64,000 bases of DNA from Lyophyllum atratum. Lineage: Eukaryota > Basidiomycota > Agaricomycetes > Agaricales > Lyophyllaceae. The DNA lies in the NCBI GenBank assembly GCA_014905825.1, contig JACGCN010000065.1, positions 1-64,000 on the forward strand, written 5' to 3'. The notes under the pieces were generated by a model that worked only from the letters and a program-made list of their open reading frames with translations, did not search any database and was not told the origin of the DNA. Made by a program: the position numbers and the translations under genes. Shown here piece after piece: positions 4,303-16,589 of the stretch (position 1 is its first letter; every line of letters starts with the position of its first letter).

Positions 4303-4463
4303 GTTCCGCATTGTACAAACCTTCAAAATAAAACGTGTATTAGTATTCCCGGGCCCACTGCCGGCCTTTTGTCCCAAGGCAGGGTTTCCTGCCTTTGACG
4401 TAACAAGGTGACTGCATTGAGATACTGTAACATGATGACTATAGCTGGGTACAAAGTTTGACA
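4303..4463 (+). repeat. direct repeat, left copy (left flank of transposon)
   Basis: This segment matches 18773-18922 in the same orientation at roughly 85% identity by eye, with shared words such as GTACAAACCTTCAAAAT and GACGTAACAAGGTGACTG. It ends exactly at the transposon border, where the match resumes on the far side at 16522. Confidence 0.8.
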
Positions 4464-4920
4464 CACTGCGGGCATGGGCTTATATATCCCACGCTTTTAG
4501 TTAGAATATATTTTGATGATATTTAAAATAAGTACACCCATTAATCTGCAGGGAAAATAAGGAATATATTTTCGATATCTTCAGACACATGTCCAAGGTA
4601 AAATCGACGTCTTTATCAGAAATATATTTATGATATCATCAGCTTTTAGCCCTTGATAAAATTCTGATTAAATTCCTAATTTTATTCCGTTAAAGCGACA
4701 GATGATACATTGAACGCATTGTGATCGAAAGATCGAAGAATCTATCTCTAATATTAGTGATGTTGAAGCATCGGATGTATGATGATCTTATTCAAAATAC
4801 AATCCAACGTGTTCTTGAACGTTGAGCAGGGTCGGGTCTGTTTCTGGTAATTCTGTCGAGCATTGTGGCCGGGGTCCCTGGCGCCCTGTGTAAGATCTGT
4901 GACCGTGACCCCTGCCCATG
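4464..4920 (+). repeat. left terminal inverted repeat of the 12-kb transposon
   Basis: It matches the reverse complement of 16067-16521 with about four differences: one substitution near 4491, one near 4620, one near 4891, and a one-base indel near 4904. The outer 400 bases are AT-rich with repeated AATATATTT and GATATC motifs that could be transposase-binding sites. The inner 60 bases are GC-rich. Confidence 0.9.
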
Positions 4921-4924
4921 ACTG

Positions 4925-5756
4925 CTCCAGCGCTCCGTACCCAGTCATCAACTTGAACATGGGTTTGTCCGACATTGCAGACGGCCGCGAGCACCGTATC
5001 CTCAGCCTGATCTGGCGGACCGCGGTCGACGCATAAAAGAGCGTGCAGGGCTTTGGAACAGGTAGGTTGCTTACTATGCGTGACATTTTGTTGGCTTTAA
5101 TCTTCTCTCACACTCTCTCTCAGATTCCCTGACGAGATCGTCGTCGATGGTGTCGAAACTGCACCGTCTGCGTCAAAGGAAAACTTTAGCTCCTAATCGA
5201 AGCCCTTCACACCCAAAACCTCTGCGCCTGGCACTTCACCAGTTTCAACCCCGCCCATTCCAGGCCTGACCAACAGCGCCATGAGTGGTATACTTCCACC
5301 GCCCTCAACCTAAGCCTCAATGTACTCTCACGTCCCCTTTCCTTCCAGACAATACCCGTAAGCGAGCGCCCTCGTTGCCAAGCCCACTCCACTTCTCTGA
5401 TCCATCGCGCCTGACATGCAGGGTGGCTTATTCGACGATTAACGGTCCGTGCGCCTTTTCCTCTGCCCCTCTTGTGCAGATTTCTCTGCACCTCTTGTCC
5501 ACACGCTCCGGTTGGCTGACTGAGAGCCCCATCCCATCGCGACAGGCTATCCGGCTTCCTCACTGCAAGTTTCTTTCTGGACAGCCAATGGAAGAGGACA
5601 AGCACGGTCACGAAGGGCTCGCTTACGAGCATAAATATCGAGTTCACGACCTTCATCTCCTCCGTCTGCGTCGTCGATGAGTTTGGCGAGGATCCCGTTA
5701 TCCGGGCTGCGCAGGCGCGTGAGGAGGCGGGCTACGACATGCCCCTCGTCACGTAG
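4925..5756 (+). pseudogene. captured fragment of an unidentified gene
   Basis: Coding-like stretches on the plus strand are separated by intron-like borders and broken by stops. They include MGLSDIADGREHRILSLIW just inside the TIR, an IVVDGVETAPSASKENF stretch at about 5130-5180, an AWHFTSFNPAHSRPDQQ stretch at about 5225-5275, and a clean C-terminal-like exon ending at a TAG at 5754-5756 (INIEFTTFISSVCVVDEFGE..). I could not assign a family, and the pieces may come from more than one gene. Its position between the TIR and the G-alpha fragment fits capture by the element. Confidence 0.45.
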
Positions 5757-6416
5757 TGACGACATTGCAGCTCTAGCTTTACTTAGGTCTTCTTGGTGTA
5801 TCGATAATCGTACTAGGCATGCGAATTTTGGGAAAACATGGGATGTACGTCTGCAACAGGGCTGGCGGGAACAATATGCGAATGATATGACTAAAATACT
5901 TTTAATGTGAGCGCCCGCGGCCTGGGTAGTACTCGAGCACAGAAATGAGTCAATGGATCTGCCAAAAGCGACCCGAAAGAAAAGAAATAGAAGTCAAAGT
6001 GGGATGTACTTGAAGATGGGTCCTACATACGTGGTGCCGATGATGATGATAGATGGGGTATATGTAAACAAATGACGAAGAAGGAGATGAGGATAGTACG
6101 ACGAAAAAAATAAGGAGAATGTAAGCAAGTAAGTAATCCAGTACGCGTATCTATTGAAATGAACTCCTTCAAAGTAGGCCCTTCTCATCCCCCTCCGCGA
6201 CGTCTACCATTCGCGGGGTGCCGGCGTCTCAGACCACACCAGCGGAGCACATAGCTCACAATATCTACAAGCCAAACGCCCAACCAACCAACCAAAGCAG
6301 CCACCCGACGCAACGCAAGAAAGCATAGGCGGAGGCGGAGAGATGGAGAGAGGGGGAGAGAGGGATGGGGCGAAAAGTCAGCGGGGGGGATAGGGGCACG
6401 ACGAGCAGCGGGGGGT
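5757..6416. other. spacer inside the transposon, no gene seen
   Basis: Mixed sequence with a purine-rich stretch at 6330-6365. The short frames have no recognisable coding character. Confidence 0.5.
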
Positions 6417-7690
6417 TCATACGAAGTCTGCGTTCTTGAGGTGTTCGCGGAGGATGCTGTCGCGTACTGTCCTCAGCGTCGTTGCGGTTGCCTTCGTGCC
6501 CTGCGGGTCGAAGAATAGTTTAGGAAGGATGTGGGGAATGAGAAGGAGGGAGAAGGGCTCACGGTAACTGAGGTGGCATAGAAGTAGCTCACGCGCGGCT
6601 CGGGCGACTGCTGCCGGAGTATATCCTTGAACTTCTCCTTCAGATCTACGCACCATACTTAGCCAATAGCATAGGATGCACAAAAGCAGCACGCACATTT
6701 AACTACCGCAAGCGGATCATTCGGGCGTTCCCCGTAACTTGGCAAGAACGTCTTCACCTGCGCTCCGCTCCTCAGCTTCCTCTTGAGGAGGTCGCATTTG
6801 TTGAGGAAGAGGATGATGGTGCTCTTGGCAAGGATCTTGGAGCCGCAGACAGCACGCCAGAGGAGGAAGGAATCTTCGAGGCGGTTGACAGAGTGATCTT
6901 CTAGCAGGCGCTCATCGAAGCAGGATATCGCTGGTGCGTGTCAGGTCTTTCCGCATGATAAATCACAGAACCAGGAGACGTACGTGCGACTGTGGATTGG
7001 GGTCAATATAGGAAGTGAGGAGTGAGGGGAGAAAAGGACATACGGAAGATGATGGCGTTAACGCCTTCAAAGTAGGGTAGCCACGCGTTTCGCTAATTGC
7101 GCACCTGTCAGATAAGGCGAAGTTTGACGAAAAGGATAACATACCGCTGTTCGCGACCCCCCAACATCGTAGATTAGCCACTCCTGCCCAAAGTTGCCAC
7201 CGATGCCCACGTCTACGACCACAACATCGTCAATACACCGGAAGAAAAAGAAGAGAAATGGGCGCACTACCCAAGAAGTTCGTCGAATTTTGGTCGAACT
7301 GGATTTTATACTCTTGGATCCCAAGCGTTCGCAACCTCGCCCTGACGATATCGTCATCCGACGGCTCATACGTCCGCGTCGCAATTCTATCCAGATCGTT
7401 CAAGAAGCTGCCCAACAAATCAGCTACCCCTCCTCACGAATCACAAAACAGAAAATACACGCACAACCCCGCCGAATCCTCAATCCTCAACCTCCTCCTC
7501 TTCAACACATCCCTAACCGTCGCATCCGTCCACAGCGCCTTCATATCCTCCCTACAACTCGCAATCACCTCCGTCGCCTCATCCACCACCTCACCCTGGG
7601 CCTGCCCACGCTCATGTCCCTTGCCCGCCACGCCTGTCACCCCCCGCACCATCACCTCTTCCGCCGCGGCCTGTCACGTCCGACGCGGGA
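6417..7690 (-). pseudogene. heterotrimeric G-protein alpha subunit, 5'-truncated copy without P-loop
   Basis: G-alpha subunits bind GTP and relay receptor signals. On the minus strand the C-terminal two thirds are clear, in order: an EATEVIASCREDMKALW helical-domain block (~7590-7545), the switch I region SDDDIVRARLRTLGIQEY (~7370-7315), switch II YDVGGSRT (~7165), RNAWLPYFEGVNAIIF, LAPISCFDERLLEDHSVNRL spanning a 6-base exon at 6984-6989, LEDSFLLWRAVCGSKIL, the guanine-specificity motif NKCDLLKRKL (NKxD), a YFYATSVT block for the TCAT loop, and a C-terminal LRTVRDSILREHLKNADFV. The GxGESGKS P-loop and N-terminal helix are absent upstream, where frames degrade beyond 7690. The 3' part remains spliceable and open. 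This and its place inside the transposon suggest a captured fragment, not the resident gene. Confidence 0.8.
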
Positions 7691-8673
7691 GTGGTACCAC
7701 GCCTCTCAACTCCGCATCCTCGGCGTCTTCTGCGAGCACCACCCTCCCCAAGAAGGGGTTTCTCAAAACACCCTCAGAAACCCTGGGTTTCCGACGGAAA
7801 GGGGGTTTCTGAATAGTTTTACCCTGGTAGGTATGTTTAGTGATCTGCTATCTGGTGGGGTGATTGGCTGATTATGATCAGTGTAGCTTTCGGATTACCT
7901 GGCGCAGATGTCTGAGCGATGTGAGTGACAGGCATGCGTGGATAGATGGCTCTTAGTTATGGGCTATGATTGTTGCTCGAGTTTTTTATGGGTGGTGGTT
8001 GCGGCTTCGAATTGACTTCCTTTCCTTTTATATGATGGCGTTCCACCTCTCATTCTGAACAAGGTTCAACCCGATATAAGAGGAAGTTGTCCCCTCCATC
8101 ATAATTTTCTTTTTTCTTTTCCAGAGATACGCTAGCTACAAGCCACCCGAGATGGGTCCAAGACTCCGATGATCATGAAGCCTGCCCACCCTGGTGGTTG
8201 GCTCCTGGCGCCAACAACATCGACACCATTGAACTTAACGTGATTCTCGCTTGCCATGTTCACAGGAGTCTTCCGACACCTGCTCTGACTCAACATCGTG
8301 TTCCATCCAGAGTCACGTTTTACATATCTTCCGCTTAACCTTCGGCAAGTTTTACCCTCGCAAGCCAAGGGGCTTGATTGACCTCATCCCGCTGGTATGT
8401 AGGTTTCCTCCGCATTCCGAAAACTTGGGTCAATTCTGCTCGCTGTTGCGCGATACCTAGAAGTGAATCCAACAGAATCTAATGTCTGATAGGGATGGAC
8501 TTCAACCAGCTTAGTCGAGACAAGCTTTTGTCGTATCGCACATTGCAGAGACATCGTCTCAGAATATCGAACCAGTGAAGACAATATTGTTGACCATCGA
8601 TTGACTTGGCGAAGGTGAACGGACAGAAACTGAGCATGCTTGAACTTTCGCTTTGTTTTTCGTAAACGATGTT
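7691..8673. other. transposon interior, possible faint gene remnants
   Basis: It contains repeated GGGTTTC-type words at about 7755-7810. A plus-strand stretch at about 8130-8340 has coding-like flavour (SHPRWVQDSDDHEACPPWWLA) but is broken by stops. No family recognised. The copia element is inserted at its right edge. Confidence 0.35.
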
Positions 8674-8996
8674 TGTTGGAGCGAGGATCGCGCCTCGCAC
8701 CACACGCGTCTGGGATCACGGCGTGACGCGACGTGACGCGTCGCCCAGTCGCGCTATCGCGCCTCGGACAGAAAAGGAAAAGGAAAGACGGAAGCATTTT
8801 GGTACTGTACAGTACCACCCTAGATAGACGAATCCCCATCTCCCTATACCTCAGTCGTTCCCTACACCGACTGAGGTATGTCGCTACATTACTTACACCC
8901 AGTCACACCACTTACGTCTAGTTTAGTTTACATTGCAACAGGTATATACCATCAATACAAGTCGTTCCCTACACCGACTGAGTTTACATTGCAACA
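8674..8996 (+). repeat. 5' LTR of the copia element
   Basis: It begins TGTTGGAGCGAGG and ends GCAACA. Inside are two copies of a GTCGTTCCCTACACCGACTGAG word. The first is embedded in a CAGTCG/CGACTG palindrome able to form a hairpin. Confidence 0.95.
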
Positions 8997-9008
8997 GGTT
9001 ATGGGCCC
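8997..9008 (+). other. primer binding site of the copia element
   Basis: GGTTATGGGCCC directly follows the 5' LTR. Its complement resembles the anticodon region of initiator methionine tRNA (..CCATAACC). This suggests priming by an internal, half-tRNA fragment as in Drosophila copia, not by the tRNA 3' end. Inferred from the motif only. Confidence 0.6.
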
Positions 9009-9146
9009 CGTTTGCACTTAAAGAAAATCTCAGTCACATAAAACACCTGGAATTGCTGCTACTACCCGACTGCGACTATATTAAAATTTTAGACCATCCC
9101 TGTCTCATCCACCCGACTGCCGACTATCTACCCAAAACCGACCACT

Positions 9147-12100
9147 ATGTCTAACCCCGCCTTATTTCTGTTACCCGCCGACGAAAAGTTCAATGGCGAC
9201 AACTGGCTCGCGTTCAAAACGACGATCATGGATGCCGCTGAAGCTCGCGGCGTCCTCGGCTACCTGAACGGGGAAATCACGCCGCCCCCGATCCCATCCC
9301 CTCTCGAGATCCCCTTGCCCCCTGCTACCAGCTACTGGGGCTCGCCCACACCTACCCCCGACGAGTGGGCGCAGCGTAACGCCTACGCGAAGGGTATGGT
9401 CACCCTGAACGTCATCAACCCTGTGGGTCAAGGTGTTAAAAGAGATGGTACTGCCGCCGAGACGTGGGCATCGCTTACCTCCATCCACGACATTAAATCC
9501 GACCTCGCGCTCATCAACGCCGAGGAGGCTCTTAGCGCGATCAAGTTCACTGAGGGCGGCAATATTGGCGCCCATTTCGCGGAGTTGCGGACGGCGTGGG
9601 GGAAGGCGAACGCCCAGGGTGCTGATATCTCTGACACCAAGTTCAGGATGTACGTCTTGAAATCCATGCCGAAGACGGCTAACTGGGTCGCACTGCTGGG
9701 GTCTCTAGTCAGCGAGACGACCTCAGCGACAGTCATCGCTCGCCTTACCATGCATGCTATCCTTACCGAGTCGGACTCCGGTAGCAATATCACTCTCGCA
9801 AAATCAGCTCACGCCCTCTCCGCCCAGGCCGGCGGGAGACGTCCAGTGCGTAACCCGGAGCTCCTATGCACGAATCTCCCTGCGTGTGGTCGCAGAGGAC
9901 ACACCGCCGACAAGTGTTTCCGTCCTGGTGGCGGAATGGAAGGTCAATACCCGGAATGGTGGAAGGGACCTCGTACTCACGCATCGAATACCCCTGCCCC
10001 GCCCAAGGCGCCCCAGCCTACTGCGAACTCTGCTGTCGCACCTGCGACGAACTCGGCCACATCACGCTGCCTGGCCTTCTCCGCCACCACCATCGCGCTC
10101 GCTCGGGGAAGCCCCGCTCCCAGCTATGCTGATTCCGCTGCTAGTCGACACTTCTTCGTGGATAGGGCGGACTTCGTGACCTACGAGGCGTCGGCGGAGA
10201 ATGTTGGGAGGACGGCGAGTGGGGGGGAATTCACGATCCTAGGGAAAGGTCGTGTTAGAAAGTTTGTGGCGTATGAAGGGGAAACCATCGAGCTTACCTT
10301 TGACGATGCACTGCACACCCCGGACCTCGACCATAATTTGATCTCCATTGGGTGCCTCGATCGGAAGGGGTGCGTCGTCGTCTTCGGAGGAGGCTGTGCG
10401 ACGTTCTACGGACCGGATAGCAAACCGTTCATGCGTGGTGCAGCCCACAACGCCACAATGTACCGCCTGGACTTCATATCTCCTCCCTCCGCGCTGTCAG
10501 CTCGCTCCCTGAAACACCCTGCCGACTTTGAGACGTGGCACCGCCGCCTGGGCCATGTGGGGGAGAGCGTACTCCGTGGGATGCTACATGGCCAAGTCGT
10601 CGAAGGGTTAGACGTGACGAAGACATCCTCCAAAGGTCGCTGCGAGGATTGTATCATGGGCAAGCACGCTCGCCGCCCATTCGATACCGAAGTTGTACCA
10701 GAATGCGCCCCCAACGAACGAGTCGCTTTCGATCTGTGGGGCCCTGCGCGTGTGAAGACAACAGGAGGGAAACTATACATGATGTTAGCATGCGATCAGG
10801 GAGGAGCAGGAACGGAGGGCTACTTCCTCGCTGATAAAATGAAGGAGACGACAGTGGAGGCGCTGGCTGCGTACCATGTAACCTCAGAGCGACAGACGGG
10901 GGTAGTGCTGAAAGTGGTGCGCACCGATGGTGGAGGGGAGTTTGTCAACGCGTTGTGGAAGGAATACTGCCAAAGGTTCGGCATCGTTCACGAGACGGTC
11001 GCCCCTCACTCCTCTGCTGCGAATGGTGTTGTTGAGCGAATGAATCGCACCGTCCTCGACCGTGGGCGCAGCATGCTCGTGGACTCCGGTTTGCCTGCAA
11101 CATACTGGGGAGAAGCCATGGCGACCGCCATTTACCTGTCAAACTTCATCCCTTCCTCACGCCACCCTGGGAAGTCACCACACGAGATCAGAACAGGGGA
11201 GAAACCACATATCGCTCACCTCAGACCATTTGGGTGCGTCGCGTATGCCAAGGTACCCCAGGAGGACGGCGGAAGCAAACTGGATCCCCGGTCGGTCAAA
11301 TGTGTCCTCCTCGGCTATTTCGGCCGCGGTGATTACAAACTGCTCGATCGATCAACTGGGCGTACCTTTCGTTCTTGTGACGTCATCTTCGAGGAAGGCC
11401 CCCCTAACCGCACCCTGGTCGCGGAGGAGGACGAGCCCATCGACGATCTACCTGAGCTCACCATTGTCGACGACCTCCTACCACCTGACCACACTGCCAT
11501 CGAGCCTCCCGTAGCGGAAGGACCACCCGTCGCCGCTGTCGAACCTGAATTGCGTCGATCAGCGCGCATAAAGTCAGCGTCAGCAGCCGCCCTTGACGCA
11601 GCTGCCACGGAAGCTGATATCGCCGCCGCCGCTGGACGCGGGCTCGATTGGGCAAAGGCGAACAAAATCCCTACAGGCACAGCGCTCTCTGCGACCACTA
11701 CAGACATCGACACATGGATTCCCAAGTCCTATTCGGAAGCGATGAAGAGGCCAGACCTTTGGAAGGGTCCGATGGATGAGGAGATGGAAAGGATGAAGGA
11801 GAGGAAGGTTTGGACGTTAGTGGAGAGGCCGCCAGGGGCGAGGACGATGAAGAATCGTTGGACCTTCGCGCTGAAGTACGACACGGATGGAAAGGTTAGC
11901 GGACGGAAGGCGCGACTGGTCGCGAAGGGGTTCTCACAGATCCCTGGGGTGGATTTCTTTGCCAGCTACGCATCCGTCGTACGTTACGAGTCTTTGCGCA
12001 TCAACCTCGCGCTGGGAGCCGTCGAGGACCTCGAGATCTGGCAGATAGACTATACCAGCGCCTACCTCAACGCACCGAACCAAGTACCAGTTCTCATGGA

Positions 12101-13346
12101 ACAGCCGGAGGGATACGAGATGACGGTCAGCCAAATCCTTCAAATAACGCCGTCGTCGGGAGTCACTATTAGGGATGGAGAACGGGCGGAGGACACGAGG
12201 GAGCTAGTGGCGCTGGTGGATAAGGCGATTTATGGGACTATGGATGGAGCTCACAACTGGTGGAAGGCGTTGGATGGGGACATGGCGAGGCTAGGGTTTA
12301 CTAGGTCGAGGGCAGACCAATCGGTCAGGACGAGGGTAGATGGCGAGGAGAAGACGGTCACCAGTACCTATACCGACGACACCACCGGCATGTCGACGTC
12401 GACCGCCGAATGGCACCGCGCGGTCCGCGAACTCGGGGGGAACTACAAGATTAAAGACCTCGGCACCATCAAGTTCGTCCTCGGTATTCGCGTCATCCGT
12501 GATAGGGAAACGCGCCTCCTCACGATGGACCAGGAGGAGTACTTGAAACGAGTTCTCGACCGCCACGGGATGTCCGACTGCATGCCGAAATACACGCCGC
12601 TACCGCCAGGAGTCGTCCTCAACAAATCACAGGCGCCCGCAACCGACGAGGACCGACACTTCATGAAGGATAAACCATACAGTGAGATCCTCGGCGCCGT
12701 CATGTATGCGCAGATAGGGACCCGCCCCGACCTCTCGTTCGCCGTCGCGTCGTTGAGCCGCTACTCATCAAACCCTGGTCGAGCGCACTGGCAGGCACTT
12801 ACTCACGTCCTCCAGTACATCAAAGCGACGCTCCATTACAAACTACGCTATGGGGGCACTGGCTACGACAATTACACCCCTTACGGTTATGTCGATTCTT
12901 ACTTCGCCGCCGACACAGACACTCGTCGCTCAGTATCAGGCCACATCTTCTTCCAGGCAGGTGGCCCCACCTGCTGGGGAGCGAAATACCAGTCTACAGT
13001 CGCTACCTCGACGACCGAGGCGGAGTACATGGCCATGGGTCGAGCCGTCGAGCAGGTATTGTGGATGTACTCGTCACTTGCCGAAATCACCTATCCCCAA
13101 CCTCGTCCTGCCATCCTTCGCGCGGATAACAACGGCGCCATATCGATTGCCGAAAACAAAAGAAACCATAACCGAGTCAAGCACATCGACGTGCGACACC
13201 ACTTCCTCCGTGAACGCGTCGAAGCCGGGGACATCGAGCTCCAGTATATCCCCAGCACCGAAAACATCGCAGATCTATTCACTAAGGCATTACCTCGCCC
13301 CGCGCACCACCAGTTCTGTGTTGCACTGCGACTTTGCGATCCCTAG
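9147..13346 (+). CDS. copia gag-pol polyprotein, 1399 residues, uninterrupted
   Basis: Gag, protease, integrase, reverse transcriptase and RNase H lie in the copia order in one frame. Gag starts with FNGDNWLAFKTTI and carries a zinc-knuckle variant CTNLPACGRRGHTADKC at about residues 241-257, with wider spacing than CX2CX4HX4C. The protease has DSA at about 329. A GAG-pre-integrase HHCC region (WHRRLGHV..CEDCIMGKH) lies at about 460-515. The integrase core has D at ~529 (FDLWGP), D at ~594 (RTDGGGEF) and E at ~630 (VVERMNRT). The RT domain starts near 855 with the catalytic box YTDD (~1075), replacing the usual YVDD. RNase H has VDS, TEAEY and ADNNGA and ends LFTKALPRP near the C-terminus. 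All catalytic acids are present and the length is normal, so it is probably functional. Confidence 0.95.
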   Translation: MSNPALFLLPADEKFNGDNWLAFKTTIMDAAEARGVLGYLNGEITPPPIPSPLEIPLPPATSYWGSPTPTPDEWAQRNAYAKGMVTLNVINPVGQGVKRDGTAAETWASLTSIHDIKSDLALINAEEALSAIKFTEGGNIGAHFAELRTAWGKANAQGADISDTKFRMYVLKSMPKTANWVALLGSLVSETTSATVIARLTMHAILTESDSGSNITLAKSAHALSAQAGGRRPVRNPELLCTNLPACGRRGHTADKCFRPGGGMEGQYPEWWKGPRTHASNTPAPPKAPQPTANSAVAPATNSATSRCLAFSATTIALARGSPAPSYADSAASRHFFVDRADFVTYEASAENVGRTASGGEFTILGKGRVRKFVAYEGETIELTFDDALHTPDLDHNLISIGCLDRKGCVVVFGGGCATFYGPDSKPFMRGAAHNATMYRLDFISPPSALSARSLKHPADFETWHRRLGHVGESVLRGMLHGQVVEGLDVTKTSSKGRCEDCIMGKHARRPFDTEVVPECAPNERVAFDLWGPARVKTTGGKLYMMLACDQGGAGTEGYFLADKMKETTVEALAAYHVTSERQTGVVLKVVRTDGGGEFVNALWKEYCQRFGIVHETVAPHSSAANGVVERMNRTVLDRGRSMLVDSGLPATYWGEAMATAIYLSNFIPSSRHPGKSPHEIRTGEKPHIAHLRPFGCVAYAKVPQEDGGSKLDPRSVKCVLLGYFGRGDYKLLDRSTGRTFRSCDVIFEEGPPNRTLVAEEDEPIDDLPELTIVDDLLPPDHTAIEPPVAEGPPVAAVEPELRRSARIKSASAAALDAAATEADIAAAAGRGLDWAKANKIPTGTALSATTTDIDTWIPKSYSEAMKRPDLWKGPMDEEMERMKERKVWTLVERPPGARTMKNRWTFALKYDTDGKVSGRKARLVAKGFSQIPGVDFFASYASVVRYESLRINLALGAVEDLEIWQIDYTSAYLNAPNQVPVLMEQPEGYEMTVSQILQITPSSGVTIRDGERAEDTRELVALVDKAIYGTMDGAHNWWKALDGDMARLGFTRSRADQSVRTRVDGEEKTVTSTYTDDTTGMSTSTAEWHRAVRELGGNYKIKDLGTIKFVLGIRVIRDRETRLLTMDQEEYLKRVLDRHGMSDCMPKYTPLPPGVVLNKSQAPATDEDRHFMKDKPYSEILGAVMYAQIGTRPDLSFAVASLSRYSSNPGRAHWQALTHVLQYIKATLHYKLRYGGTGYDNYTPYGYVDSYFAADTDTRRSVSGHIFFQAGGPTCWGAKYQSTVATSTTEAEYMAMGRAVEQVLWMYSSLAEITYPQPRPAILRADNNGAISIAENKRNHNRVKHIDVRHHFLRERVEAGDIELQYIPSTENIADLFTKALPRPAHHQFCVALRLCDP

Positions 13347-13360
13347 CGTGTCGCGCGAGT

Positions 13361-13369
13361 CCGGGGGAG
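13361..13369 (+). other. polypurine tract of the copia element
   Basis: CCGGGGGAG immediately precedes the 3' LTR, the position from which plus-strand DNA synthesis is primed. Confidence 0.6.
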
Positions 13370-13691
13370 TGTTGGAGCGAGGATCGCGCCTCGCACCACA
13401 CGCGTCTGGGATCACGGCGTGACGCGACGTGACGCGTCGCCCAGTCGCGCTATCGCGCCTCGGACAGAAAAGGAAAAGGAAAGACGGAAGCATTTTGGTA
13501 CTGTACAGTACCACCCTAGATAACGAATCCCCATCTCCCTATACCTCAGTCGTTCCCTACACCGACTGAGGTATGTCGCTACATTACTTACACCCAGTCA
13601 CACCACTTACGTCTAGTTTAGTTTACATTGCAACAGGTATATACCATCAATACAAGTCGTTCCCTACACCGACTGAGTTTACATTGCAACA
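13370..13691 (+). repeat. 3' LTR of the copia element
   Basis: Near-identical to 8674-8996, differing by a one-base deletion near 13520. It is followed by the target duplication ATGTT. Confidence 0.95.
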
Positions 13692-14189
13692 ATGTTCCCA
13701 TTGCCACGCGCCTTGGTGTGTCGCTCGTTGGATATCTCTTTGACCACATTCCGCACGGTGATGGTGAACAGAGTACTCAGTCTCAGTAAGCTACTACGGA
13801 CAACTTGCCAGATTATTGCCGGCGGCTTTGTTACCTCCTTGACACTATTTACGATAAGGTCTGCCGTCGCTTGGTTGAGCTTGGGAACACAACCTTAGAC
13901 GCAGTTTCGCCGGTGAGCCTTGATTCGGATCGGGATTAGTTATATTGGAGCAATGTGTTACATGCCAACGTCGCGCCCACATAAAGTGCCGGCCGCCCAT
14001 TGCTCAGTAGCTATACTCTAACTACCGCGAACATCATCGAATCCGCTGTACACACGTCACTTCAGTCAGAAACCTCCCAGAAGACTTAACACAAAAATCT
14101 AATCTACTCACAGCCCTTAACCACGTCCCGCAAAACACACCCATCAACTCGAACATCGCACACCGATATCAAGTGCCCTTCCCTTCAAA
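13692..14189. other. transposon interior right of the copia element, no gene seen
   Basis: Continues the host sequence interrupted at 8673. Short open frames only; no recognisable domain. Confidence 0.5.
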
Positions 14190-16110
14190 TCAACCCCCAT
14201 CTCTAGATCTCCTTCCACTTAGCGCTGGATATGGTAGGGTTAGATTAAACCGTAAGATGGGGAAAGGGGTGGGGTCACGGAGGAAGTCGAGGGGATCAAG
14301 GTAACTGTATCCTGCCTCTGCGTCCTCTCCAGCTTCATCGTCCCCCCCACTCCCTGCTTCAGTGTCGTCGGCTATCCGGAAGATACCCGTCCCCATCCTC
14401 CTTGACCGCCTTACCCAACACCCTCACCGTCCCCTCCCCCGCCACCCCCGCATCCAAAAACGAACTCCCCCTCTTTTTCCTCCTACTCAGGACCCTCAGC
14501 TTTGGCCGCTCCCTCACCAGACTCGGCAAACTCTCCTCCCTCCTCCCTCCCCCCCCTCCACCCTCCTCGTCCACCACCCCTCCTGTGCCCGCGTACTCGT
14601 GCAGCCAACCATCGCGAACTACTCCCTCAGCGCCTACCCTACCTCCTTCTCGCGACATCTGCATCATCGCAGAGTTCCCCTGCAGCTCAAACGCCTCCTC
14701 ATGCGGGGGCACGCTCCCCCTCACCCCTCGCCCCTTCCCCGGCGACTCCCCACCCCACTGACCTCTCCCCACCCCCTCATCAGCTCCCCCTCTTCGCAAC
14801 GTTGCCCGGGGGGAAAGAACATCCGGACTCGAATCGTCCCCGCGCTCCGAGCTGATCACCCACCCCCGTGTTTTAACAATGTCCCAGGGGAGCCAGTACC
14901 TCCCTCGCACTCATCATCCCACTCTCCTCACTCTCCCAACTCCATCTCCCCCGCCCCGTGCACTCCCCACCCTACTCCGAACACTGCTCTCGGCCTCTAT
15001 ACGTAGAGTAGAAGAGTTTTTGCTAGTGGGAGGGAGGGTGGAGAGAGGAGGGGGAAGGGAGGAGGGAGGAGGCGTACATGGGGAAATCCTGCTCTCGAGG
15101 ACGAGCCACCGGGTTTTGTACCGCTTTGTGATGTTCGTGTACTTATTGGAGTATGTCTTCGGGACGTGCGGGTCGTATCATGGTTCGGCACTGTTTTGGG
15201 ATAGGGTAAGGTAGAAAGAAAGGAAGAGGAGGGGGACAAGTCACGCACGTTGAAGAAGAGACACATTTACCCGCTCATCCTGCCCCGCGCTCCCCTTCCC
15301 CGCCATCTTGCCCTTCCTATTTCTCACAGCACTCCCCTTCCCGCCATCTTGCCCATGTTATTCCACAAAAACGCGTCCGCGCCCGCTCTCCCTGCGAGCT
15401 CAAGAGTCAAAGGTCCTTCCGGCGGGCCGCATCGTGGAGGAGGGCGTGCCCAGAGCCGTTGTCGAGGTAGAAGGGGTTGACAAAGCTGATGTGGGGGACT
15501 CGAGGAGGGACAGGCAGTCCTGGGCGGGTGTGGCTGCGGGTGGGGAGAGGAAGCAGCAGCGGTAGGAGGCGCCGAGGAAGGAATGCGAGTCTGGGAGGGG
15601 TGATGTCGGTGGTGGTTGGAGGAGTAGGCAAGGGAGGTAGGGTTACGTACCTTCGATAGCCTTGATGACGTCGCGTCCGGGGGCTACGTCGCGGAATGTG
15701 AGTTCTTACGCGTCTCTGAGCGTGCCATTGACGCAGTCCTGCTCCAGTAGTAAGTTGACAACATTCACGCGGCCGAGTTGAGGCTGCGAGGTGGAGGGGT
15801 GTGGTCCCCGAGGCCGGAGGAGGATTCGCAATGCGAGAGCAGGAGGGCGACAGTGTCCACCGCGATATTCGGACTCAACAACCACCGTGTTGAGGGGAAG
15901 GAGGGTGCGGTGATGTTATTTGGTTGAGAGATGGAGGTAGAATATGGACCTGTTGAAGTAAAAGAGCTCGATTAGTACAGTTATATGAAAAAACAGATAA
16001 GGAAAACGCGTCAAGGATGCTTACTTTGAACGATCCGGGCACGCCAGCGTTGAGCGGATGCAGTCGATGAGCAGGGGTCACGTCACAGATCTTGCACAGG
16101 GCGCCAGGGA
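14190..16110 (-). pseudogene. oxysterol-binding protein (Osh1-like) fragment: ankyrin and PH parts
   Basis: OSBP/Osh proteins move sterols between membranes at contact sites. The long forms carry ankyrin repeats and a PH domain before the lipid-binding domain. Minus-strand pieces in order: a GALCKICDVTPAHRLHPL piece running out of the TIR (~16125-16050), an ankyrin-like stretch with TPLHLAAST and GRVNVVNLLLEQDCVNGTL (~15800-15720), then ..FRDVAPGRDVIKAIE, a HISFVNPFYLDNGSGHALLH + DAARRKDL stretch (~15500-15410), a PH-domain core KYTNITKRYKTRWLVLE (~15150-15100), and PPHEEAFELQGN (~14700). Stops and frame changes break it repeatedly, and the ORD lipid-binding domain is missing. It is therefore a decayed partial copy, consistent with capture by the transposon. 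Confidence 0.7.
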
Positions 16111-16521
16111 CCCCGGCCACAATGCTCGACAGAATTACCAGAAACAGACCCGACCCTGCTCAACGTTCAAGAACACGTTGGATTGTATTTTGAATAAGAT
16201 CATCATACATCCGATGCTTCAACATCACTAATATTAGAGATAGATTCTTCGATCTTTCGATCACAATGCGTTCAATGTATCATCTGTCGCTTTAACGGAA
16301 TAAAATTAGGAATTTAATCAGAATTTTATCAAGGGCTAAAAGCTGATGATATCATAAATATATTCCTGATAAAGACGTCGATTTTACCTTGGACATGTGT
16401 CTGAAGATATCGAAAATATATTCCTTATTTTCCCTGCAGATTAATGGGTGTACTTATTTTAAATATCATCAAAATATATTCTAACTAAAAGCGGGGGATA
16501 TATAAGCCCATGCCCGCAGTG
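16067..16521 (-). repeat. right terminal inverted repeat of the 12-kb transposon
   Basis: Reverse complement of 4464-4920. Its outer end GCCCGCAGTG is followed by the ACA target duplication. Inner bases overlap the start of the OSBP-like fragment, so TIR and cargo share a border of a few dozen bases. Confidence 0.9.
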
Positions 16522-16589
16522 ACAGAACACATTCGATAACAGGACAAAAGCGGGGAAAGCGCGACGAGAGAGTCCAAGTAAAAGTACAC

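Follow-up and report, generated by a model that had tools for sequence, protein, structure and literature searches.

A probable Pack-type CACTA transposon with captured pieces of host genes, and its giant relatives, in the mushroom Lyophyllum atratum

The stretch of DNA analysed here (the window: 64,000 nucleotides of Lyophyllum atratum, contig JACGCN010000065.1, positions 1 to 64,000; C114:1-64000 in the contig numbering used below) contains at 4464..16521 a mobile element of 12,058 bp that generates a 3-bp target duplication when it inserts. Its cargo includes pieces from three or more host genes, taken up as genomic DNA with their introns. Relatives of the element at other sites in the assembly (G000; 64.8 Mb, 151 contigs) carry shared or rearranged cargo. 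The element is most probably a recent, polymorphic, non-autonomous Pack-TYPE transposon of the CACTA/EnSpm group, belonging to a family moved by the transposase of much larger relatives (called 'giants' below), its cargo having been gained by fill-in capture and a copia retrotransposon having entered later.

The outermost bases of the element are CACTGCGGGCATGGGCTTATATA and its complement, giving CACTGC...GCAGTG ends, and its left terminal inverted repeat (TIR; 4464..4925, forward strand) aligns in inverted orientation with the right TIR (16060..16521, reverse strand) over 463 columns at 98.7% identity. The duplication flanking it is exactly 3 bp, ACA on each side (4461..4463 and 16522..16524). 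An earlier reading of the window from sequence alone had described near-identical TIRs of about 456 bp, a CACTG terminus and an ACA duplication, all of which are seen at the two ends. When 400 bp from each flank were joined with a single ACA and searched against the whole genome, an unoccupied site was found at C97:286218-287017, matching at 800 of 800 bases (100%) with one ACA, and the insertion is therefore considered recent. C97 and C114 have otherwise identical sequence without and with the element, a pattern that two nuclear haplotypes would give, as would a very recent duplication, and the difference is explained by one insertion, excision restoring one ACA exactly being a less simple alternative. 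Paired similar places were returned by many of the searches (C77/C104, C66/C86, C71/C108, C127/C141 and C97/C114), as if both haplotypes had been assembled.

One captured piece (5265..7634, reverse strand) derives from a G-alpha gene and is 5'-truncated with introns present. It is 88% identical to C104 over 2.4 kb, introns included in the alignment, and 84-92% identical to C77; one frame of the G-alpha donor scored 79.5 bits with Pfam (cut-off 48.8) and another 47.6, just under, tblastn with the donor frames matched this piece of the window, and the C104 gene has N-terminal exons that the window element is without. Three pieces on the forward strand, at 5077..5264 (76-78%), 7640..7755 (88-89%; alignable from 7625 with looser settings) and 7829..8664 (73-74%), are successive parts of one ArfGAP gene on C86 and C66 (73-89% identity), the upstream exon of which, in the C86 gene, encodes the Pfam ArfGap domain (3e-18). 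An ArfGAP gene is thus the source of at least some of the exons left unnamed by the sequence-only reading. Between the first and second ArfGAP pieces, where 32-44 bp of ArfGAP sequence are gone, depending on the alignment, stands the G-alpha piece; it follows that G-alpha either entered an ArfGAP piece captured earlier or was gained together with it in one patchwork event. A by-eye look for microhomology at the G-alpha joins gave no clear result. A piece of about 70 nt at 7754..7827 (forward strand) belongs to an unrelated dispersed repeat (99-100% to C76, C98 and C60).

Near the right end, 14266..16062 (reverse strand) comes from an OSBP-type gene, of which it holds the N-terminal part, introns included. 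It has matches on C104, C77 and C66/C86/C89 at 64-82%, identities so low that the loci found may be related to the donor and not the donor itself. The match to parts of C104:30707-32830 and C77:48782-50945 reaches about position 15885, and that to the C66/C86/C89 copies extends to 16062. Pfam searches on single frames of the window OSBP region were negative; on the gene strand, the C104 and C77 loci reach Pfam Oxysterol_BP within about 250 bp (C104:33077-34512 and C77:51164-52624). The C66, C86 and C89 copies, among the closest outside the family, have no Oxysterol_BP match of their own. Many further OSBP-like DNA fragments were noted, several of them near contig ends (C66:2-57 kb, C86:4-15 kb, C89:387-391 kb, C118, C96 and C24), with no Oxysterol_BP match there. 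The G-alpha and OSBP copies had previously been identified correctly and read as truncated, with the proviso that full-length, syntenic genes at this position in relatives would speak against capture; donor or donor-related genes holding the parts absent from the element were located on other contigs, and residence of full-length genes here was accordingly rejected.

A genome search with the left TIR gave 41 matches, and the terminal 23-mer, allowing up to three mismatches, was found at 44 places, compared with 0 for a reversed control pattern, so these matches are not due to chance (family end sequence: CACTGCGGGCATGGGC). Both ends with a perfect 3-bp duplication were present at 16 of 18 examined loci (12/14 + 3/3 + 1/1), lone or degenerate ends (C141, C122, C68, C85, C103, C24 and others) having been left out of the counts. 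The two other loci, C1a and C1b, are rearranged copies with a common flank. The flanks of the 16 paired loci had no mutual similarity at E <= 1e-3, and the loci thus represent independent insertions. The ends read CACTG in 15 of the 16 paired elements and CACCG in the C119 giant. One of the lone ends, an exact copy of the family end, occurs with the same flank on two contigs (C141:290789, L060; C122:112136). At C24:1076814-1077076 and C71:768835-768983, similar ends (CACTGCGGGCATTGGCC and variants) were also observed as inverted pairs a short distance apart, and these are possibly miniature inverted-repeat transposable elements of the same superfamily.

Twelve of the paired loci are Pack elements (C114, C82, C107, C119a, C46, C35, C77a, C77b, C77c, C130, C64 and C62), 4-23 kb in size, in which no CACTA-like transposase was detected; neither the giants' transposase nor a Plavaka transposase had a match inside them among the best candidates scored, in agreement with the absence of a visible transposase first noticed for the window element. 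Their TIRs are 385-582 nt long, with 95.3-100% identity between the two ends in 11 elements and 80% in C77a. In 8 of the 12, one end runs into a shared subterminal block (alignments of at least 561 columns from the end), which in the window element occupies 4926..5073 on the forward strand and is common to one end of seven other Pack elements. The Pack elements thus look like units with fixed ends and a replaceable middle. The C46 element additionally contains an unrelated Tc5/pogo-like transposase (HTH_Tnp_Tc5, DDE_1).

Donors were sought for the cargo of the C114, C46 and C35 elements, and donors or their relatives were found for all three. In the C46 element, three frames cover positions 4-56, 88-185 and 230-275 of the 276-position Peptidase_C54 (ATG4) profile, the N-terminal stretch having counterparts on C141 and C127 at 89%. 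In the C35 element, a 3.5-kb segment with 94-95% identity to C71 and C108 spans a MIOS frame (3e-9) and most of an APH-kinase frame (1e-8), and is joined directly to ATG4 sequence; the same MIOS/APH segment is present, in pieces, in C77a (81-86%). OSBP cargo is common to C82 and C114 (94-96%), 5.5 kb are common to C62 and C64 (97.8%), and C77c and C130 have 2.5 kb (97.0%) and 2.1 kb (95.2%) in common. Since the C62/C64 and C77c/C130 pairs share cargo at different sites, each with its own duplications, captured DNA evidently travels with the ends. Among 20 chosen cargo frames, Pfam named no gene in C62, C64, C77b, C77c or C130, which is weak evidence on their content; C107 gave a weak AMP-binding trace (0.004, below cut-off), and the C1b locus, outside the 12, contains a protein kinase frame (7e-17). 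The sequence-only reading had suggested a genome search for further members and a fungal family that moves and reshuffles pieces of genes, and both suggestions are borne out by the 16 paired loci and by the several elements that share or reshuffle cargo at different sites.

The four other paired loci are the giants: C60 (40,461 bp), C63 (C63:355208-395704, 40,497 bp) and C67 (39,948 bp), all three sized by coordinates, and C119 (about 53.9 kb), each flanked by a perfect 3-bp duplication. About 12 kb of the C63 interior were read (seven 1.5-kb samples plus 1.5 kb), together with the ends of all four. Unoccupied sites were sought with a single query made up of the joined flanks of C60, C63 and C67. 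For C67, three counterparts (C73, C1 and C130) matched over the full 201 bases at 100%, from which it follows that this giant entered repeated sequence, and for C60 one was found (97% over 196 bases, C89). The joined flanks of C63 matched 158 bases at 94% (C119) and 141 at 93% (C93), and form what looks like a tRNA-Glu(TTC) gene interrupted by a 16-nt intron (L063, L064); these matches are therefore probably other copies of the tRNA gene and not the allele.

Each of the four paired-end giants contains a transposase gene. Its distance from the left end is 34.3 kb in both C63 and C60, and in C67 it lies 33.8 kb from the corresponding end, positions that support collinear units of about 40 kb. 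In C63 it comprises a 559-aa open frame (C63:388195-389871) followed by a 229-aa frame (390154-390840); an 882-aa open frame from a separate scan of the same C63 matches was not reproduced. Among the best candidates, a 289-aa transposase query matched C60, C63 and C67 at 97-98% and the C119 giant at 69 and 80%, and outside the giants C67:660374-661715 (61 and 80%), relics in the C1 copies and, more distantly, other places. Among the 120 of 144 homologues that were listed, the named ones come from agaricomycete fungi and five carry PF13960. The transposase is likely CACTA-type, a label that rests on termini, target duplication and homologues, and the giants are candidates for the autonomous partner, sought since the first reading of the window, in the same genome.

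Over 521 columns, the first sample from C63 and the C1 copies agree at 96%, and the latter are thus probably deletion derivatives of giants. At C1:1653874-1662507 and C1:1707511-1725921, three copies of one end stand beside the same flank, a giant-derived insertion apparently having been multiplied by larger duplications. The right end of the C119 giant (L068) contains a short local repetition, GGGCTTATTGTGGGCTTATATAG, which is lacking at its left end. A 273-aa protein of the giants (P0001, P0002; L072:2-574) displays by eye an HxD...H...R-like pattern, and a TET/JBP-type dioxygenase was not confirmed: it had no Pfam hit and no credible PDB match by sequence or profile (best E 0.18, an amylase), its AlphaFold model had a mean predicted local distance difference test score (pLDDT) of 37, and 10 homologues were found. 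A WD40-like frame of the C63 giant had sub-threshold Pfam scores only and no homologues.

Nested in the window element is a copia long terminal repeat (LTR) retrotransposon at 8674..13691 (forward strand), whose two LTRs (323 and 322 nt) differ by one gap and no mismatch, flanked by the target duplication ATGTT (8669-8673 and 13692-13696). Its gag-pol open frame of 1399 aa (9147..13346, forward strand) contains RVT_2 (8.5e-44), gag and integrase domains. The copia splits captured material and consequently landed after cargo capture. Description of the locus as a 12-kb Pack-type element therefore holds for the type, whereas about 5 kb of the 12,058 bp are this later insertion, which had been overlooked. 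A relative of the window copia (about 68-71% in DNA) was also observed inside the C46 element (L012-L014).

The 5'-CAC..GTG-3' ends and the 3-bp target duplication are those of CACTA/EnSpm transposons (CMC group), and the lack of an own transposase, the captured host pieces with donors elsewhere in the elements searched for them, and the cargo copied with the element to further sites are those of Pack-TYPE elements. The capture model put forward from the sequence is upheld by the exact unoccupied site, the donor-related genes elsewhere and the genome-wide family with its 3-bp duplications. Helitrons are rolling-circle elements with no TIRs and no target duplication; membership among them was rejected, as long TIRs and 3-bp duplications are present. 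As a mechanism, we suggest that a DDE transposase from the relatives of about 40 kb, which have the same terminal sequence, would recognise CACTG...CAGTG and move the giants and, in trans, the Pack elements. Breaks inside an element would be filled by copying sequence from elsewhere, by which cargo would be gained; such repair would place one captured gene in another, leaving no internal TIR relics.

Cargo could instead have been gained by fusion of neighbouring insertions, the outer ends moving as one. Fusion with later loss of the inner TIRs is the model published for plant Pack-CACTA elements (PMC8903248), and C77b and C77c stand only 3.8 kb apart. However, no piece of a TIR was found at E <= 1e-3 in the interiors of any of the 12 Pack elements (650 nt trimmed per end), although inner TIRs could have been deleted, and the G-alpha piece sits within an ArfGAP piece. 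Because of the missing relics and the gene-inside-gene capture, fill-in repair is held to be more likely, and fusion is a possibility to which we give a clearly smaller, though real, share of belief.

It is unlikely that the Pack elements are moved by a Plavaka-like transposase (the C141/C24/C1 clade) and not by the giants' enzyme. A Plavaka-like gene at C141:297620-299772 (PF18759, 32.8 bits, cut-off 26.3) lies 7-9 kb from the lone exact family end at 290789, and three of five loci of the closer clade (C141, C24:595761 and C1:1635272) have a family end or relic no more than about 20 kb away; the other two (C119:1728636 and C97:2076780) are not near family ends. On C141, no second end was found within 11.5 kb and only about 39 nt of the lone end match the family, and all four paired-end giants carry the other transposase. 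Plavaka ends, as published, are TGT..ACA or CATCA..TGATG (PMC12730594), unlike the CACTG..CAGTG or CACCG..CGGTG ends found here, and membership in Plavaka was rejected on these grounds. The idea that no transposon is involved, and that resident genes were enclosed by a local inverted duplication or rearrangement, was rejected as highly improbable: such an event could leave long inverted arms on either side of gene fragments, but the otherwise identical locus without the element, with one ACA, contradicts it, and the same ends occur with other 3-bp duplications at 15 further sites.

Several observations weigh against a Pack-TYPE CACTA element mobilised by the giants and filled by repair. The TIRs, already remarked upon as unlike those of typical CACTA elements, are far longer than usual for that group, in which short TIRs are typical rather than strictly defining. 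Similarity between the TIRs of the giants and those of the window element is confined to about 350 nt, at 85-86%. Pfam finds no transposase domain in the first frame of the giants' transposase, and DUF4218, which accompanies CACTA transposases, was found in the second frame only below the cut-off (4.6e-4, 20.5 of 27 bits). The Plavaka-like clade is also near some family ends, donors were sought for the cargo of only 3 of the 12 Pack elements, and the loci found for the OSBP cargo and for part of the ArfGAP cargo, which may be donor relatives, reach only 64-89% identity.

Descriptions of TIR transposons that capture pieces of host genes come mainly from plants. The mushroom case presented here is documented by donor genes, target duplications and unoccupied sites, and the family is so young that otherwise identical sequence occurs with and without an insertion. 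Plant Pack-CACTA/Pack-TYPE elements (PMC8903248) are likewise non-autonomous TIR elements with shuffled host pieces, 3-bp duplications and CACTA-like ends, whereas the present family is fungal, has TIRs measuring 385-582 nt and far longer cargo (a single piece can reach 3.5 kb), shows no relics of inner TIRs and includes giant autonomous candidates. Fungal EnSpm elements (PMC12730594) agree with it in CAC..GTG ends, 3-bp duplications and a distant relation to Plavaka transposases; they are described for carriage of TET/JBP genes, and host-gene capture and a size of about 40 kb, as found here, are absent from the portions of that paper available. CNIRT6 of Cryptococcus neoformans (PMC12139950), an active CACTA element with a CACTG motif at its ends, is similar in being from a basidiomycete and in superfamily and termini, and differs in coding for a full-length transposase (gene annotation of about 6.9 kb), with no captured host genes described in the text available. 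Enlarged CACTA elements of 16-20 kb in the red alga Chondrus (PMC6431247) and 20.5 kb in soybean (PMC2613891) are also above the usual size, but are half that of the giants of about 40 kb and come from other kingdoms.

That a TIR element can take up a host gene and spread it in fungi is known from hAT elements of ascomycetes, in which a histone H3 gene was transduplicated (PMC6710886); these have 8-bp duplications, TIRs of 18-20 bp and one gene. Helitrons of Pleurotus (PMC4289320) are likewise mushroom elements with captured gene fragments and differ in being rolling-circle. No report of a fungal Pack-CACTA set or of a comparable 40-kb CACTA was found in the open-access library searched; plant Pack-CACTAs and fungal CACTAs are already known. 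What was found goes beyond the first reading of the window: a probable Pack-CACTA family in a mushroom with donors, unoccupied sites and autonomous candidates of about 40 kb. Starships, of which eight of 42-606 kb are described in Tremella (PMC13066641), resemble the giants in moving tens of kilobases as one unit in a fungus, and employ a tyrosine-recombinase captain, as opposed to the long CACTG TIRs, 3-bp duplications and probably other transposase type of the giants. The relatives of about 40 kb suggest that moving Starship-sized blocks lies within the capacity of a plain TIR transposon. With the transposase domain below Pfam cut-offs and about 12 kb of one giant read, it is about an even question whether mushrooms have a two-tier CACTA system, in which multi-gene giants of about 40-54 kb move whole and supply the transposase while Pack-CACTA elements shuffle pieces of housekeeping genes, the giants being a TIR/DDE counterpart of Starships in Basidiomycota.

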